Shown here: piece by piece, positions 9,008 through 28,570 of the stretch
Position numbering within the stretch: the first letter of the stretch is position 1
Layout: each line of letters starts with the position of its first letter
Source: Candidatus Alistipes intestinigallinarum
GTDB taxonomy: Bacteria; Bacteroidota; Bacteroidia; Bacteroidales; Rikenellaceae
Reading direction: 5' to 3'
DNA length: 64,000 nt
Assembly (NCBI GenBank): GCA_019115745.1
Contig: DXDA01000065.1
Location: 1-64,000, forward strand
Program-made: the position numbers and the translations under genes
Notes under the pieces: model-generated
Database searches by the model: none
What the model saw: the letters and a program-made list of their open reading frames with translations, nothing else
What the model was told of the DNA's origin: nothing

Positions 9008-10531
9008 ATGAAAACCATTCGAAACATCATACTGGCCCTCTCCGGCCTGCTCATGGGAGCCTGCAACGCCCTGGAGCTGGGGCCCATCGACCAATATTCG
9101 ATCAACAACTACTGGAACACCGAAGAGCAGTGCGAACGCTTCATGATCGGCCTCCACTACCGCCTGAAGGAGAAGATGGAGACCATCATGGTCATGGGCG
9201 AGCTGCGCGGCGGAACGCTCTCCACCGAGGCCGTCACCTCGACCGGCGAGGCAGCCTCGAACCTCGAAGCCGTGAGCAACAACCTCTCGGTCTCGAACCC
9301 CTGCCTGACGAACTGGGGCGACTTCTACATGGACATCTACCAGATCAACCACGCCATCGAGAAGATCTCCGGCGAGTGTGACTTTCTGCGCGACGAGACG
9401 CGGAAGACCTATCTCGGACAGTTGTACGGTCTGCGGGCGTTCTACTACTTCCACCTGTTGCGCACGTGGGGCGGGGTGCCGCTCTGCGACAAACCCGACG
9501 TGCTGCAGACGGGCGACCTGACCACGCTCAACAAGAAACGCGCAAGCGAACAGGAGACCTGGAACTTCATCCGCAAGGACATCGACACGTCGTGCGACAT
9601 GTACGCCGAACTGGCCTACGGGAACTACAACGGAGCGAACTGCTACTGGAACAAGGCGGCGTCGCAATGCCTGAAGGCCGAAGTCTACCTCTGGGGTGCA
9701 AAGGTGAAGCCCATCGGGGGCACGGGAGTTCTGTCGCCCGATCCGGCCGGAGACCTGCAGGCGGCAAAGGCGGCTCTCGAAAAGGTCGAGCCGCACTACA
9801 GCTACAATGCGAAGTTTGCCAACGCCTTCTCGCCGAAGGACAAGGACGCCAATCCGGAGACGATCTTCGCAGCCCGCTACATGCTCAACGAGAGCACGAA
9901 CTACTTCGTGAACTTCACCTACAACATCGCCATCTTCACGAAATATTTCGATGCCGAGGGGAACAAGCTCGGGAACGTGCTCAACATCGGCAGCGGCTAC
10001 ATGCGCTACGAATATTCGCAGGCCTTCTACGACTCGTTCGAGGAGGGTGACACGCGCCGCGACGCCACCTTCCTGCAATTCTACCTCAAGGATACGGACA
10101 ACGAACTCTACCCGGCGGGCCGGAGCCTGCGGAAGTTCCTCGGCGACGTGAGCAACGGAAAGGTGCAGTACACGAACGACGTGCCGGTCTACCGCTACAT
10201 GGACGTGGTGCTGATGCTGGCCGAGATCTGCAACGAGCTCGACGAACCGGGCGACACGAAGAAGTGGATTGACATCGTGCGCAAGCGCGCCTTCGGCAAG
10301 GACCAGCCCTTCATCTACACGAGCAAGGATGCTGCCGAGGAGGCGATTCTTCGGGAGCGGAACGCGGAGTTCGTCGCCGAGAGCAAACGCTGGTACGACG
10401 TACGACGGATGTGCGGCGGGAAATACGCCCTGGAGCTGGTCGGCGGCGACGAACGGCGACTGCTGTGGCCGATCGACTCGGGCGTCCTCTCGAAAGATCC
10501 GCTCGTCGAGCAGAACGAAGCCTACAAGTAA
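9008..10531 (+). CDS. SusD/RagB family lipoprotein (NanU-type)
   Basis: Lipobox GACNALELGP; LRAFYYFHLLRTWGGVPL; VPVYRYMDVVLMLAEICNE; immediately follows SusC. Confidence 0.94.
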   Translation: MKTIRNIILALSGLLMGACNALELGPIDQYSINNYWNTEEQCERFMIGLHYRLKEKMETIMVMGELRGGTLSTEAVTSTGEAASNLEAVSNNLSVSNPCLTNWGDFYMDIYQINHAIEKISGECDFLRDETRKTYLGQLYGLRAFYYFHLLRTWGGVPLCDKPDVLQTGDLTTLNKKRASEQETWNFIRKDIDTSCDMYAELAYGNYNGANCYWNKAASQCLKAEVYLWGAKVKPIGGTGVLSPDPAGDLQAAKAALEKVEPHYSYNAKFANAFSPKDKDANPETIFAARYMLNESTNYFVNFTYNIAIFTKYFDAEGNKLGNVLNIGSGYMRYEYSQAFYDSFEEGDTRRDATFLQFYLKDTDNELYPAGRSLRKFLGDVSNGKVQYTNDVPVYRYMDVVLMLAEICNELDEPGDTKKWIDIVRKRAFGKDQPFIYTSKDAAEEAILRERNAEFVAESKRWYDVRRMCGGKYALELVGGDERRLLWPIDSGVLSKDPLVEQNEAYK

Positions 10532-10552
10532 CGGTCTGAAAAACGAACGGCC

Positions 10553-13225
10553 GTGAAACGCTTCATTCTCTCATTTGCATTGCTGTACATCGGGTTGGCC
10601 GTCACGGCCGGAAACCGGGTGGAGATCTTTACCCCCGGGATCCCGGTCGTGACCGGCCGCGGGTACGGTATCGTCACGGAGATCTGCATCGAGTCGGACG
10701 GACGGGCAGATACGCTCGAAAGGATCGACCTGACGGTAGCGGATCTCGACCCCGCGCTGCTCCGCTCCGCACGCCTCGTCTACACGGGCACCCTGTCGGC
10801 CATCCGGTCGCGGACAACCTCCTATGTGCTCAGGGACCAGGGGAAGCGTCTGGGCGGCGGACAGACGCTCTACGCCGACAAAGGGTTCGGAATCGTGCAG
10901 AGCATCCTCCATCCGACGGAACCGGTCTTCGGATTTCCGGTCGGCAAGGCGCTCGTGAAGGGGCGCAACTACTTCCACGTCAGCCTCGACATCACACCCC
11001 GCACCGCCGGGGAACTCGCCCGACCCTTCACGCTGGAGGTTGAACGAGTGATCGTAAACGGGAGCGAACGCCCCCTCAACCGGCAAGGTGCCGTCAACTC
11101 ACGGCTGGGCGTGAGCGTCCGCCAGCACGGTGACGACGGAGTCTGGGCCTACCGGATTCCGGGTCTGGTGACGACAAACGCCGGAACGCTGCTCGGGGTC
11201 TACGACGTGCGCCATACGTCGAGTCTCGACCTGCAGAACGACATCGACGTCGGAGTCAGCCGCAGCACCGACGGCGGCGTAAGCTGGGAACCGATGCGCA
11301 TCGCCCTCGACATGGGCGAATGGGGCGGTCTGCCCGAAGCGCAGAACGGAGTCGGGGACCCGGCCGTCCTGGTGGACACGCAGAGCGGCGAGATCTTCAT
11401 TCTGGCGGTCTGGACCCACGGCTGCGGAGGCGACCGGGCCTGGACGTCCGTCGGCGACGGGCTCGCCCCGGAAGAGACGGCGCAACTGATGCTCACCTCC
11501 AGCCGGGACGACGGCCGGAGCTGGTCCGCCCCGCGGAACATCACCCGGCAGATCAAACGCCCGGAGTGGTTCCTGACGCTTCAGGGCCCGGGGCGCGGCA
11601 TCTGCATGAAGGACGGCACGCTGGTCTTCCCGATCCAATTCATCGGAGCCGACCGCATCCCCTGTGCCGGAATCATCTACAGCAAGGATCACGGCCAGAC
11701 GTGGCACTTCCACACCCCGGCCCGGAGCAATACGACCGAATCGCAGGTTGCCGAACTGCCCGACGGGTCGCTGATGCTCAACATGCGGGACAACCGCAAA
11801 ACGGGCCGTGCGGTGAGCGTAACGCGCAACCTGGGCCGCACGTGGCAGGAGCATCCGTCGTCGGGCGGGTTGATCGAGCCGGTCTGCATGGCGAGCCTGC
11901 TGAGCATCCCGGCCGAGCGGAACGTGCTCGGGCGCGACCTGCTGCTCTTCTCGAACCCCGCGACAACCAAGGGACGGCACAGCATGACGATCCGCGTCAG
12001 CCTCGACGGCGGATACACCTGGCTGCCGGAACACTCGCTGCTGCTGGATGCCGAGGAGAACTGGGGCTATTCGTGTCTGACACAGATCGACGCCGCGCAC
12101 ATCGGCATTCTCTACGAAAGCAGCGTCTCGCAGATGCTCTTCCAGGCAATCCGGCTGACGGACCTCGTCCGGGAGGAGCCCACGGAGCGAATCCGTTTCG
12201 CGGCCATGCCGGAGATTCCCGCCACCGCGAAAGGTTACGCCGACGGCGTCTCGGCCGCCTGCTGCGGAATTGCGAACGGGCGGCTGATCGTGGCCGGAGG
12301 GGCCAATTTCCCCGGCGACCCGCTGGCCGCGGATGCGAAAAAACACTTTTACAACGACATCTGGATGGTGAATCCCGGCGCCGCAACACCGGTCTGGTGC
12401 CACGCCGGAACGCTGCCCGACGAGGTGGCCTATGCGGCAAGCTACGTCTGCGGCGACCGGGTGATTGTGGCCGGAGGCGCAGGACCCGACGGATGTTCGG
12501 ACCGGGTATACGCCCTTACGGTCAAGCGGAACCGGGTCGTCGTCTCATCACTGCCGCCACTTCCCTTCCCGGTGGAGCAGGCCGCAGCAGCACAGCTCGG
12601 GAACCGGCTCTTTCTGGCCGGGGGCCTGACCCCCGACGGGGCAAACGGGAAGCTTCTGGTCTGCGACCTCGACGCCGGAGCGCACTGGCAAGTGCTGGCC
12701 GAACTTCCGGAACGCATGGTACAGCCTCTTGCCGCCGCGTCGCACGACGTCCTCTACCTCTGGGGCGGTTTCGATCCGGTGACGAAACGCTGCTCGGAGA
12801 AGGGGTACCGGCTGGACCTCGCCACGGGAAGCTGGCACCCGACGGCTCCGGTTCCGGAGGGGGCAACCCTCACGGGCTCCACGCTCCTCGGAGCCGATGC
12901 CGCGGGAATCCTGGTCTCGGGAGGTGTGGACCGGAAGCGCTTCGAAACAGGGCTGGCGGCCTCCACCGCAAAGGAGCAGGCCGCCTATCTGGCGATGCCG
13001 CCCACCCACTACGCCTTCAACAACCGGATCCGCTACTTCCGCTTCGCCGACGAGACATGGCTGGAGCTGGGCCGCTCGGGGCGCTGTGCCCTGGCGGGAG
13101 CCGCAGCCGCCACAGACCGCAATCGTGGGGTGCACTACCTCGTCGGCGGGGAGATCAAACCACGGGTCAGAAGTCCGAAAATCTGGAAAATAGAAGTTTA
13201 TGGAATCCCTGAAAAGACAAAATAA
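10553..13225 (+). CDS. Sialidase (GH33) fused to C-terminal NanM-like cyclically permuted mutarotase (Kelch)
   Basis: N-terminal half: WAYRIPGLVT and Asp boxes STDGGVSW, SRDDGRSW, SKDHGQTW, SLDGGYTW. C-terminal half: MPEIPATAKGYADGVSAACCGIANGRLIVAGGANFPGDPLAADAKKHFYNDIWMVNPG plus Kelch blades. GTG start at 10553. Confidence 0.9.
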   Translation: MKRFILSFALLYIGLAVTAGNRVEIFTPGIPVVTGRGYGIVTEICIESDGRADTLERIDLTVADLDPALLRSARLVYTGTLSAIRSRTTSYVLRDQGKRLGGGQTLYADKGFGIVQSILHPTEPVFGFPVGKALVKGRNYFHVSLDITPRTAGELARPFTLEVERVIVNGSERPLNRQGAVNSRLGVSVRQHGDDGVWAYRIPGLVTTNAGTLLGVYDVRHTSSLDLQNDIDVGVSRSTDGGVSWEPMRIALDMGEWGGLPEAQNGVGDPAVLVDTQSGEIFILAVWTHGCGGDRAWTSVGDGLAPEETAQLMLTSSRDDGRSWSAPRNITRQIKRPEWFLTLQGPGRGICMKDGTLVFPIQFIGADRIPCAGIIYSKDHGQTWHFHTPARSNTTESQVAELPDGSLMLNMRDNRKTGRAVSVTRNLGRTWQEHPSSGGLIEPVCMASLLSIPAERNVLGRDLLLFSNPATTKGRHSMTIRVSLDGGYTWLPEHSLLLDAEENWGYSCLTQIDAAHIGILYESSVSQMLFQAIRLTDLVREEPTERIRFAAMPEIPATAKGYADGVSAACCGIANGRLIVAGGANFPGDPLAADAKKHFYNDIWMVNPGAATPVWCHAGTLPDEVAYAASYVCGDRVIVAGGAGPDGCSDRVYALTVKRNRVVVSSLPPLPFPVEQAAAAQLGNRLFLAGGLTPDGANGKLLVCDLDAGAHWQVLAELPERMVQPLAAASHDVLYLWGGFDPVTKRCSEKGYRLDLATGSWHPTAPVPEGATLTGSTLLGADAAGILVSGGVDRKRFETGLAASTAKEQAAYLAMPPTHYAFNNRIRYFRFADETWLELGRSGRCALAGAAAATDRNRGVHYLVGGEIKPRVRSPKIWKIEVYGIPEKTK

Positions 13226-24292: not shown

Positions 24293-25096
24293 ATGAAATC
24301 CATACTCGAAAACCGTCCGGAACTGGCCCGCCGGGTCGCCGAAGTGGCCGAAGTGGCCGGATACCTCTGGCAAAAGGGCTGGGCCGAACGCAACGGCGGC
24401 AACATCACGATCAACGTCACGGAGTGCATCGACGACGACGTCCGCGCCCTGCCGCCTCTCAGCGAGCCGATTCCGTTCGGCATGACCCTGCCCCGGCTCA
24501 AAGGTTGCTACTTCTTCTGCAAGGGGACGAACCGCCGGATGCGCGATCTGGCCCGCCGTCCGATGGAGAACGGCGCGGTGATCCGCATCCTCGACGACGG
24601 AGCCTCGTACGAAATCGTCGCCGACGAGCCCGTGCGCCCGACCTCCGAGCTGGCCTCGCACCTGGCCATGCACGAGCAGATGCTCGCCGCAGGGAACGGC
24701 TACCGTGCGGCGATCCACACCCATCCGATCGACCTGGTGGCGATGACCCACAACCCGGCCTTTCTCGAAAAGGACGTGCTGACCCACCTCCTGTGGTCGA
24801 TGATCCCCGAGACGCGGGCATTCTGTCCCAAGGGTCTCGGAATCGTCCCCTACGCCATGCCGTCCTCCGTGGAGCTGGCCCGGGCAACGATCGAGCAGTT
24901 GAAGGAGTACGACGTGGTGATGTGGGAGAAGCACGGCGTCTGCGCCGTGGGGCCCGACGTCATGGAGGCCTTCGACCAGATCGACGTCCTCTCGAAATCG
25001 GCCCAGATCTACCTCACGGCCAAGTCCATGGGATTCGAACCCACAGGAACGACTCCCGAGCAGATGGACGAACTCAAACGCGCCTTCAACCTCTGA
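24293..25096 (+). CDS. rhaD: Rhamnulose-1-phosphate aldolase
   Basis: Class II aldolase: WAERNGGNITINVTE; AIHTHPIDLVAM; VMWEKHGVCAVGPD. Start ATG at 24293; ORF track start 24227 is over-extended. Confidence 0.93.
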   Translation: MKSILENRPELARRVAEVAEVAGYLWQKGWAERNGGNITINVTECIDDDVRALPPLSEPIPFGMTLPRLKGCYFFCKGTNRRMRDLARRPMENGAVIRILDDGASYEIVADEPVRPTSELASHLAMHEQMLAAGNGYRAAIHTHPIDLVAMTHNPAFLEKDVLTHLLWSMIPETRAFCPKGLGIVPYAMPSSVELARATIEQLKEYDVVMWEKHGVCAVGPDVMEAFDQIDVLSKSAQIYLTAKSMGFEPTGTTPEQMDELKRAFNL

Positions 25097-25215
25097 TGCC
25101 CCGGCCCGGAGCGGCAGGAGGAGGGCCTCCCGGAAACGGCACTCCATCCCGGGCCGCAAACGATTCAGCCCTCACGAAACGGTCCGATCCTACGAAAACG
25201 ACCGAATATCCACGA

Positions 25216-25247
25216 AAACGCCCCCGCAGGAAGCTGCGGGGGCGTTT
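25216..25247. terminator. Bidirectional intrinsic terminator between rhaD and DUF4465 gene
   Basis: AAACGCCCCCGCAG-GAAG-CTGCGGGGGCGTTT, 14-bp stem with A/T-rich ends on both sides. Confidence 0.85.
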
Positions 25248-25272
25248 ATTTTCAGAATTGCCGGGAGCTGGA

Positions 25273-26106
25273 TTACTCCTTCACAAGCGCGATTTCGTCG
25301 ATGCAGAAATAAGAGGGGTCCTGCGTAATGTCGATACCCGCCACCTTAAAGACCAGTTTATCGACGGCTCCGAACGAAGCCAAATTCACCTTGCGCCATC
25401 CGGAGAGCTTCGTCGAACCCGAAATCAGCGTCTCGGTCGTCGAGCCCACTTCGGTGTCACCCTTCCATCCGGTGATCTTCACCTGGAACAAGTCGCCCTC
25501 TTCGCCTTGAAAGTAATTGTAGACATAGGTCGAATTGGCGATGTAGAGGTGATCGACAACCCGGGGCTGTGCAAGGGTGAAGGTCGGATAGCCCGATTTG
25601 CTCATATACTCGGGATATCCCTCCGAAGGGGTATTCGAGTCGTAGCAGACGGCATAAGTCGGCGTATTGTTGGCACCGCCTTCGGCCCAAACGGAGAACT
25701 GCTGTTTTGAAGAACCGGCGGCTGACCTCATATCGGGCATGGCGGCCACAGCGATGCCGTTCCAGTAGTCAAAGCCGAAAGCATAGTAAGAGAGGAACTT
25801 CACCGAGCCGTCGGCGGTCATGAAAAGCGGACCGTCATAGTTTTCCGTCGTAGCGTACTCCTTGCCGCAGTAGATGGAGGAAAAAGTGAAGTCGGCAGAT
25901 CCAGTACCTTCATAGAGGCTCATGGTGACGCTTTTCAGCACAATTTCTTCGCCGTTGATGTCGACCATGTGTTCCGAGGGCTCGAAGGAGATCACATCGT
26001 ACTCCGGCGCCGGTTCACCCTCATCATCATCCGAGCAGGCAGCCACAGAGGCTACACACAGCGTCGCCAGAAAAAAGCGAGACAAGAGTTTCATATTCAA
26101 TTTCAT
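25273..26106 (-). CDS. DUF4465 domain-containing lipoprotein
   Basis: Lipobox VAACSDDDE; body IVLKSVTMSLYEG...SVWAEGG...PRVVDHLYIANSTYVYNYFQ...YFCIDEIALVKE; strongly similar to the upstream paralogue. Confidence 0.8.
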   Translation of the reverse strand: MKLNMKLLSRFFLATLCVASVAACSDDDEGEPAPEYDVISFEPSEHMVDINGEEIVLKSVTMSLYEGTGSADFTFSSIYCGKEYATTENYDGPLFMTADGSVKFLSYYAFGFDYWNGIAVAAMPDMRSAAGSSKQQFSVWAEGGANNTPTYAVCYDSNTPSEGYPEYMSKSGYPTFTLAQPRVVDHLYIANSTYVYNYFQGEEGDLFQVKITGWKGDTEVGSTTETLISGSTKLSGWRKVNLASFGAVDKLVFKVAGIDITQDPSYFCIDEIALVKE

Positions 26107-26133
26107 ATTCGCAAAATTTATTTAATAAAAGTC

Positions 26134-27240
26134 TTACTCTTTCACCAGCGCGATCTCATCCAGGCAGAAATAAACCGGATCGAGATCCACGTTGGGATTG
26201 ATACCCTCGGGCGCGAAGGTCAGGTTGTCGACCTGCCCCAGCGACGAGAGATCGACCTTGACCCATCCGGCCTCCACCGTGCTGTTCTTCACCAGCATCA
26301 CATCTACCGTACCGGTCGATTCTCCGTTCAACGACCCGGTGATCCGGAATCCGCACGTGCGATCCTTGGCGGCCGTAAAATCGTACTTATAGTAGGTGTA
26401 AAACATCGTCGAGGGAGCCATGTGCAAATAAGCGACCGTCCGGGGTTCCACAAATTCAATAACCGGATTGGAATAGGTACCGCCCACCATCGAGCGGAAG
26501 CAATAGGCGGCAGCAAACACCTTGCTGGAGTTGGCGCCCGACTCGGCATAGACGGAGAACTGATCGGCATAGGAAGACGAGGTAGCGGTCGTATTATAAC
26601 TCTGCGACAACACGAAACCACCCCATGAATCCATCTGACCGCCACCCCATCCGGTACAGTCGCTGTAGAAGGAGCCGAACCAGACATGCTCATCTGCCGT
26701 GGAGAAGAGCGGATTATCGAATGTCAACCCATTGAAATTAGCTGGATCTCCATATTCCTCCGCATATTTTTTTGCACAGAAAAGATTGTGATAAAGGCCC
26801 TCATTGACACCGCCGTCCAGTTTCACATCACCCAACGTGACGGCATTGCCCACGAAGTCCTTTATCCCCTCTTCCGCCTCAAAGGAGATGATGTCATACT
26901 CTGCAGCGGGCTCGGCAACCTCGATGGTGCACGTTGCCGACACACTGCCGCAAACCGCCTTGATAACCGCCGTACCCGGCGCTACGGCCGTCACCAGACC
27001 CGTTTCCGAAACCGTGGCCACGGTCTCCTCGTCCGAACTCCACACCACCGGATCCGTCGTATCGGACGGAGCGGGCGTTGCCGTCAGTTGCAGGGTCTCC
27101 CCCACGCCGAGCGTCTTGCTCTCCACGTCCAGCACAACGGCCGTTGCCGGCACCGAGCCATCGTTGTCATCATCCGCACAGCCGACAAAAGCCAGCGCCG
27201 CCACCAGCACAAAAGCCGAAGCAAATAAAAATCGTTTCAT
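26134..27240 (-). CDS. Lipoprotein with Big2-type Ig domain and DUF4465 domain
   Basis: Lipobox FVGCADDD; Big2-like VVLDVESKTLGVGETLQLTATPAPSDTTDPVVWSSDEETVATVS...VTAVAPGTAVIKAVCG; DUF4465 body ending YFCLDEIALVKE. Start MKRFLFAS at 27240. Confidence 0.8.
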   Translation of the reverse strand: MKRFLFASAFVLVAALAFVGCADDDNDGSVPATAVVLDVESKTLGVGETLQLTATPAPSDTTDPVVWSSDEETVATVSETGLVTAVAPGTAVIKAVCGSVSATCTIEVAEPAAEYDIISFEAEEGIKDFVGNAVTLGDVKLDGGVNEGLYHNLFCAKKYAEEYGDPANFNGLTFDNPLFSTADEHVWFGSFYSDCTGWGGGQMDSWGGFVLSQSYNTTATSSSYADQFSVYAESGANSSKVFAAAYCFRSMVGGTYSNPVIEFVEPRTVAYLHMAPSTMFYTYYKYDFTAAKDRTCGFRITGSLNGESTGTVDVMLVKNSTVEAGWVKVDLSSLGQVDNLTFAPEGINPNVDLDPVYFCLDEIALVKE

Positions 27241-27270
27241 AATCGTTTGGTTAAAATAGGTATAAAAACA

Positions 27271-27299
27271 AAAAAAATCCGGTCCCGGGCCTCCCGAGA
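27271..27299 (-). terminator. Second terminator-like hairpin between riboswitch and start codon
   Basis: Minus strand TCTCGGG-AGG-CCCGGGA-CCGGA-TTTTTTT. Confidence 0.4.
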
Positions 27300-27396
27300 T
27301 CGAATCCTCCGTTTTCGACGTATCGCACCAAACAAACACCCGTTTTGCGGCCTGACGCCGAGTTCCACGATGCTCCGTTCTCCGCAGATGCGCTCG

Positions 27397-27420
27397 AAAA
27401 AGAGTCTTCCCTCCGGGAAG
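27397..27420 (-). terminator. Terminator-like hairpin just 3' of the riboswitch (candidate expression platform)
   Basis: Minus strand CTTCCC-GGA-GGGAAG-ACTC-TTTTT, 4 nt after the riboswitch core. Confidence 0.5.
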
Positions 27421-27423
27421 TGC

Positions 27424-27600
27424 AAGGCAGGTCTTCTGGCTCATCCCTGCCGCAACGCCTTCCCGGTCCTGCGGGACCAGTGGCCAGCGTGTTGCGGCAA
27501 TTTGCGGGACTTACAGCAGCGGGAACTGCTGCCGACTTTCACGGCATTCCCTTTTCATCACACGGAGCCCCACCCCCCCCTGCATACTCCATACAGGCTC
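27424..27600 (-). ncRNA. Cobalamin riboswitch (approximate bounds)
   Basis: Minus-strand sequence: AAAAGGGAATGCCGTGAAAGTCGGCAGCAGTTCCCGCTGCTGTAAG ... GCCACTGGTCCCGCAGGACCGGGAAGGCG ... GATGAGCCAGAAGACCTGCC, matching the conserved B12-box elements. Confidence 0.94.
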
Positions 27601-27630
27601 GGCATGGGCCCTTTGTGAACCTTGGCGGTG

Positions 27631-27662
27631 CAAAGTTAGAAAATAAATTCGTATCTTTGCAA
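27631..27662 (-). promoter_or_regulatory. Promoter for riboswitch/DUF4465 operon
   Basis: Minus strand TTG-N21-TAACTTTG (-33/-7 type). Confidence 0.55.
27652..27659 (+). promoter_or_regulatory. Promoter -7 element TATCTTTG upstream of fabD
   Basis: TATCTTTG matches TAnnTTTG, 29 nt before the fabD ATG. Confidence 0.6.
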
Positions 27663-27688
27663 CCGCTAAACCAAAAAACACGAAAATC

Positions 27689-28570
27689 ATGAAGCACGCT
27701 TACGTGTTCCCGGGCCAGGGCGCCCAGGCCGTCGGGATGGGCAAGGACCTCTACGACAACGTTCCCGAAGCAAAGGAACTCTTCGAGAAAGCCAACGAAA
27801 TACTCGGATTCCGCATTACCGACATCATGTTCGCCGGAACGGACGAGGAGCTCAAGCAGACGAAGGTTACCCAACCGGCCGTATTCCTCCACTCAGTGAT
27901 CATGGCCAAGGCCCTCGGCGTAAAACCCGATGCCGTTGCCGGACACTCGCTGGGTGAATTCTCGGCGCTGGTCGTTGCCGGAGCCCTTTCGTTCGAGGAC
28001 GGTCTGAAGCTCGTTTCGAAACGTGCCATGGCCATGCAGGCCGCCTGCGAGGCCCAGCCCGGCACGATGGCCGCCATCCTCGGACTGGACGACAAGACCG
28101 TCGAGGAGATCTGCGCATCGACCGACGGTGTGGTCGTTGCCGCCAACTACAACTGCCCGGGACAGTTGGTGATTTCGGGAGCCGTCGAGGCTGTCGAGGC
28201 CGCCTGTGAGAAGGCCAAGGCTGCCGGAGCACGCCGTGCGCTGCGTCTGCCCGTGGGCGGAGCCTTCCACTCGCCGCTGATGGAGCCCGCCAAGCAGGAG
28301 CTCGAAAAGGCCATCCACGAGGCTCCGTTCCAGACCCCCACGTGCCCGATCTACCAGAACGTCGACGCAAAACCCTATACCGATCCCGCCGCCATCAAGG
28401 CCAACCTGATCGCCCAGTTGACGGCCCCGGTGCGCTGGACCTATATCGTCAAGAACATGCTGGCCGACGGCGTGACGGAGTTCACCGAGCTCGGCCCCGG
28501 CACGGTGCTCCAGGGTCTGATCCGCAAGGTCGACGCCAACGCCACCGTCGAGTCGAAATCGACGCTGTAA
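27689..28570 (+). CDS. fabD: Malonyl CoA-acyl carrier protein transacylase
   Basis: FPGQGAQAVGMGKDLY; AGHSLGEFSALV; QGLIRKV. Confidence 0.95.
   Translation: MKHAYVFPGQGAQAVGMGKDLYDNVPEAKELFEKANEILGFRITDIMFAGTDEELKQTKVTQPAVFLHSVIMAKALGVKPDAVAGHSLGEFSALVVAGALSFEDGLKLVSKRAMAMQAACEAQPGTMAAILGLDDKTVEEICASTDGVVVAANYNCPGQLVISGAVEAVEAACEKAKAAGARRALRLPVGGAFHSPLMEPAKQELEKAIHEAPFQTPTCPIYQNVDAKPYTDPAAIKANLIAQLTAPVRWTYIVKNMLADGVTEFTELGPGTVLQGLIRKVDANATVESKSTL

Follow-up and report, generated by a model that had tools for sequence, protein, structure and literature searches.

The locus and its neighborhood

The window analyzed here is a 64-kb stretch of an Alistipes MAG (G000; 2.64 Mb, about 89% complete). 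It carries a cobalamin riboswitch and two lipoprotein genes (a and b), flanked on one side by the convergent RhaK-RhaA-RhaT-RhaD genes and on the other by the divergent fabD. The features of this unit, in the order in which they would be transcribed, are the following:

27631..27662, minus strand: putative Bacteroidetes-type promoter, TTGC (27662-27659), 20 nt, TAACTTTG (27638-27631), read from the sequence
27409..27587, minus strand: riboswitch aptamer (RF00174, 27587-27409), 98.1 bits, E 2.8e-23, full length (positions 1-189)
27270..27305, minus strand: leader hairpin ATTCGATCTCGGG-AGG-CCCGGGACCGGAT with T-run, likely riboswitch attenuator (hairpin conservation)
26134..27240, minus strand: gene a, 368-aa lipoprotein (Cys21) with Big_2 (33-105) and DUF4465/BtuJ (about 115-367) domains (Pfam, AlphaFold, Foldseek, dN/dS)
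26107..26133, minus strand: intergenic gap between a and b, 27 nt (sequence)
25273..26106, minus strand: gene b, 277-aa lipoprotein (Cys24, SDDDE export-type signal) with a DUF4465/BtuJ domain (Pfam, AlphaFold, Foldseek, dN/dS)
25215..25244, minus strand: intrinsic terminator CGCCCCCGCAG-CTTC-CTGCGGGGGCG-TTTT between gene b and the convergent rhaD, read from the sequence

The aptamer is the sole Rfam match in the window, complete and above the covariance-model threshold of 31.5 bits. It is not a chance match, because the fabD-adjacent arrangement with a riboswitch of 89–111 bits recurs in other Alistipes. Bacteroidetes promoters follow the consensus TTTG/TAnnTTTG, and a sigma-70 promoter scan is uninformative for the phylum of the window's host; a promoter-like TTGCAAAGATACGAATTTATTTTCTAACTTTGC-type stretch is retained in several related leaders. 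Gene a plausibly starts at the ATG at 27240 rather than at the ORF start at 27444, and the short gap that separates it from gene b (26133-26107) suggests that the two would form one operon.

An earlier note on this DNA had described a canonical minus-strand B12 riboswitch governing a stand-alone pair of DUF4465 lipoprotein genes, arranged in tandem with a gap of 27 nt and one of them fused to Big2, with a terminator after the pair and no transport gene beside it. This description was borne out by the Rfam match, the Pfam scores given below, the 11-bp GC hairpin and T-tract at 25244-25215, and the absence of BtuB from the locus, the importer being encoded on another contig.

Family assignment of the lipoproteins

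Both proteins pass the gathering cut-off of PF14717 (DUF4465; 25 bits), gene a with 60.3 and gene b with 74.9 bits; the second Pfam domain of gene a is Big_2 (58.3 bits), and NCBIfam returned no name for either protein. The DUF4465 family is BtuJ, shown in papers of 2025–26 to bind B12. BtuJ1 and BtuJ2 of Bacteroides thetaiotaomicron (B. theta) have nano- to picomolar affinity for B12, which they carry on vesicles (PMC12751083), and eight divergent DUF4465 proteins were shown to bind it, one of them from Rikenellaceae, to which Alistipes belongs, even at identities as low as 16% (PMC13398666). The function of the family is already known, and the cobamide-capture role proposed for the pair in the earlier note agrees with these reports.

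The same note had suggested that DUF4465 might correspond to BtuH, an identification that is rejected: BtuH has a different fold, the papers name DUF4465 BtuJ, and the true BtuH of this genome is a separate protein encoded elsewhere (L008 8320-9234; match to 7biz/BtuH2, E 3.9e-59). PDB searches with both window proteins gave no match to BtuH (7BIZ C-terminal domain).

Predicted fold, ligand pocket and selection

Lipoprotein signal peptides occur at both N-termini (MKRFLFASAFVLVAALAFVGC-ADDD and MKLNMKLLSRFFLATLCVASVAAC-SDDD); these peptides and their lipobox Cys, identified by inspection of both sequences, are conserved in relatives. AlphaFold models (mean pLDDT 86.3 for gene a and 86.0 for gene b) matched the augmented beta-jellyroll fold in Foldseek searches of the PDB. 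The top nine matches of the gene a model are all DUF4465 structures, followed by Big_2, and those of gene b are likewise all DUF4465, including BtuJ1, BtuJ2, and D5EK51; B12 complexes of these three proteins are among the top matches of both models. The Foldseek TM-scores are just 0.4–0.7, and sequence similarity to PDB entries is weak, single-clade profiles giving E-values of about 1e-4 to 1e-3.

In profile alignments the HI-loop Tyr of the pocket (BtuJ1 Y245) is kept as Y357 in a and Y266 in b, and is nearly invariant in A1. The DE-loop Tyr (BtuJ1 Y146) corresponds to Y194 in b and to M279 in a, and the HI-loop Asn-Thr (BtuJ1 N241, T242) to Gln-Asp in b and Leu-Asp in a. A Tyr lies near the position of the AB-loop Tyr in a and none in b, in a region where the alignment register is uncertain. 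From sequence and models we infer that a and b bind cobamides, possibly with different preferences. That one or both paralogues bind some other ligand (incomplete corrinoids, cobamides with other lower ligands, or a non-corrinoid tetrapyrrole) would fit the changes at conserved B12-contact positions (M279 for Y146 in a, Asp for T242 in both, the differing AB-loop Tyr), but is unlikely given that B12 binding persists in the family at the low identities cited above (PMC13398666) and that the pair is under B12 riboswitch control.

Both genes are under purifying selection. Between the window genome and its orthologues dN/dS is about 0.29 for gene a and 0.17–0.22 for gene b, values which exceed that of fabD.

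The leader hairpin and regulation

The leader hairpin lies about 30 nt upstream of the start codon, and hairpin and T-tract are found in 11 species, with 89.5% of the cells of the alignment paired. Covariation in the hairpin was no better than in shuffles, so that the attenuator reading draws on conservation only; this conservation suggests transcription attenuation by termination. B12 would repress the locus, since known cobalamin riboswitches of B. theta act in this way (PMC12751083, PMC8941943).

B12 import and use in the same genome

Genome-wide statements are based on searches across the contigs of the window genome. A riboswitch-BtuG-BtuH-BtuB operon, with a DUF5074 BtuG and a BtuB-like TonB receptor, is located on another contig (C32), and the genome has four cobalamin riboswitches in total. 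Judged from their sequences, MetH and methylmalonyl-CoA mutase are encoded, and the organism would therefore use B12. A FecCD (BtuC) match was not found in the window MAG, and a clear one is present in each of four better-assembled congeners. Further DUF4465 genes, including the B12-linked ones for which the earlier note had proposed a search, were not found in the 2.64 Mb assembly.

Other loci of this genome are recorded here in their own right. A cobalamin riboswitch at L007 10001-10196 (+) lies upstream of a solitary gene (about 10425-10793, +) whose 122-aa product (MNILLYGVPTG...) matches nothing in Pfam or NCBIfam, the next genes being oppositely oriented. Another, at L008 971-776 (-), precedes a gene at the contig end (605-3, -) whose sequence, with an ATP-cone at its start, resembles an anaerobic ribonucleotide reductase. 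At L007 14428-11913 (-) a TonB receptor is found beside genes for a small hydrophobic protein that looks like the membrane component of a transporter and for Fe-S/aldo-keto reductase proteins.

Detachment from the importer across Alistipes

The fabD-adjacent tandem pair also occurs in G176, G177, and G179, and in many more species the same spot is filled by a single DUF4465 gene and its riboswitch; the locus divergent from fabD recurs in over 25 species of Alistipes. Among 55 fabD loci examined, 15 of which were chosen for having a DUF4465 match, 27 have a B12-box motif together with DUF4465 (at a distance of about 3 kb from fabD in G195). One locus has a BtuG-like gene, three have a riboswitch motif without evident cargo gene, and two lie on contigs that stop too soon. 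Of the 54 DUF4465 genes in 37 congeneric genomes, 15 follow a riboswitch and have no BtuB on the same contig at a distance of up to 8 kb, a figure somewhat inflated by short contigs.

The window genome and several of its relatives are draft MAGs, from which assembly artefacts might mimic detachment or differences in cargo. This is highly improbable and largely refuted by G177, a closed single-contig genome with the same pair and synteny, in which the nearest of the other cobalamin riboswitches (four in all) lies about 208 kb from that of the pair. Moreover, the locus of G183 is bordered on its two sides by rha and fabD and sits about 42 kb into a contig of 223 kb, and the cargo types recur in several independent genomes. 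The detachment of the pair from the importer is genuine, and the earlier claim of a detached locus extends across species.

Variant arrangements were also observed. In G196, G199, and G197 (L090, L092, L085 about 380-1000) the riboswitch beside fabD is kept with no capture gene after it; G197 has an integrase-type gene about 2 kb farther downstream. Other pair layouts exist: in G188 and G163 (L062 1196-1476, L063 2203-2417) a cobalamin riboswitch is placed between two DUF4465 genes, in G163 followed by a BtuH gene.

A locus that lacks its own importer could also encode mainly a vesicle-borne or surface trap (a decoy, a store or a competition factor) instead of feeding the importer of the same cell. 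In B. theta, BtuJ1 and BtuJ2 associate with vesicles, and vesicles served as a source of B12 only when they bore BtuJ (PMC12751083). Yet cells can use vesicle-bound B12 (PMC12751083), which makes trap and feeder roles overlap, and BtuBGH is retained in the genome; this explanation is a serious possibility that falls somewhat short of even.

Cargo exchange behind a fixed leader and signal peptide

In the gene tree, the proteins at the fabD locus fall into three lineages with good support (a, b, and c), which do not follow the leaders that precede them. The leaders of G176 and G183 are 100% identical over 453 nt and their mature proteins 42%; for G177 and G183 the values are 99 and 43%, whereas the cargos of G183 and G032 are 89% identical and their leaders only 93%. 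In DNA alignments identity breaks off around codon 24, right behind the lipobox Cys, and is regained shortly after the last stop codon. Silent-site divergence between G000 and G177 is likewise uneven (dS 0.48 for gene a, 0.23 for gene b, 0.18 for fabD). Drift is rejected as the cause of the mismatch, given leaders up to 100% identical ahead of mature proteins at 42–43%; recombination is the explanation to which these sequence comparisons point.

A further replacement is that of G023, in which leader and signal peptide are kept and the mature protein is a DUF5074 (BtuG-family) propeller (168 bits), related to solved DUF5074/YncE-type surface proteins. The difference from G032 is confined to the coding core, both flanks aligning at about 87%. 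As one B12-binder has here been replaced by another, a shared ligand is supported. Riboswitch and signal peptide form the conserved unit and the secreted domain is exchanged between species, an arrangement that seems new. A phase-variable shufflon was considered and rejected: inverted repeats of at least 16 nt were not found in 24900-27700, and the genome holds no spare DUF4465 cassette.

Exchange of the domain could alternatively be an escape from recognition of the surface protein by phages or antibodies, with the ligand unchanged. The constancy of leader and signal peptide ahead of a wholly replaced secreted domain would fit, as would the dN/dS of a and b above that of fabD and the fact that the G023 replacement is another predicted B12-binding fold. 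The pocket residues differ too, however, and a change of ligand would explain this equally well; escape with a constant ligand is a tentative and rather doubtful explanation. The broader proposal is that a fixed slot swaps entire secreted domains for cobamide binding, also between unrelated folds (from DUF4465 to a BtuG-type propeller), which would tune or disguise capture while the vitamin would be delivered in trans to a remote BtuBGH; it appears to us evenly balanced.

Proposed mechanism and significance

The reading that we consider likely is that of a B12-repressed surface cobamide-capture module working apart from the importer. At low intracellular cobalamin the riboswitch would let transcription through the leader terminator, and the two BtuJ-type lipoproteins would be made. 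After lipidation they would probably be shown on the outer surface or on vesicles, bind cobamides in the loop pocket of the beta-jellyroll and pass them in trans to the BtuB-BtuG-BtuH system encoded elsewhere. In evolution, the riboswitch and signal peptide are conserved as a unit, behind which recombination has swapped the binding domain between species, among the a, b, and c lineages of DUF4465 and in one case for a BtuG-type propeller.

Searches for literature joining Alistipes with cobalamin riboswitches or BtuG returned nothing relevant and, as far as the searchable literature goes, a detached, cargo-exchanging locus is undescribed. Whether surface B12-binding lipoproteins can serve importers from other loci was left open (Nat Commun 2023; PMC10404256), and a naturally detached, riboswitch-driven binder makes service to importers at remote loci directly testable. 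The exchange of whole domains behind a constant switch and signal peptide suggests that cobamide capture, or its exposure at the surface, is under strong selection in this major gut genus.

Comparison with known systems

Linkage of DUF4465 genes to B12 transport genes is frequent but not obligatory (source paper), and is lacking at the window pair, which has no BtuB in its locus. BtuJ1 and BtuJ2 of B. theta (BT_1491, BT_1957) resemble the pair in Pfam family (PF14717/IPR027828), predicted fold, lipoprotein signal, and cobalamin-riboswitch control. They are, however, found inside operons with BtuB/BtuG/BtuH, whereas the Alistipes pair stands alone beside fabD, is tandem with one Big_2-fused member, and has altered pocket residues. 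D5EK51 (Coraliomargarita; 9HMU) and "656" (A0A928FT42, from a Rikenellaceae bacterium and hence from the same bacterial family as Alistipes) are DUF4465 proteins for which B12 binding was demonstrated. BtuH2 of B. theta (7BIZ), a surface B12-binding lipoprotein, has N-terminal Ig-like domains before its C-terminal binding domain, an organization analogous to Big_2 plus DUF4465, although the binding domains are unrelated. BtuG, a DUF5074 beta-propeller and usual partner of BtuB, differs in fold from DUF4465; a BtuG-type protein fills the identical riboswitch and signal-peptide slot in G023.
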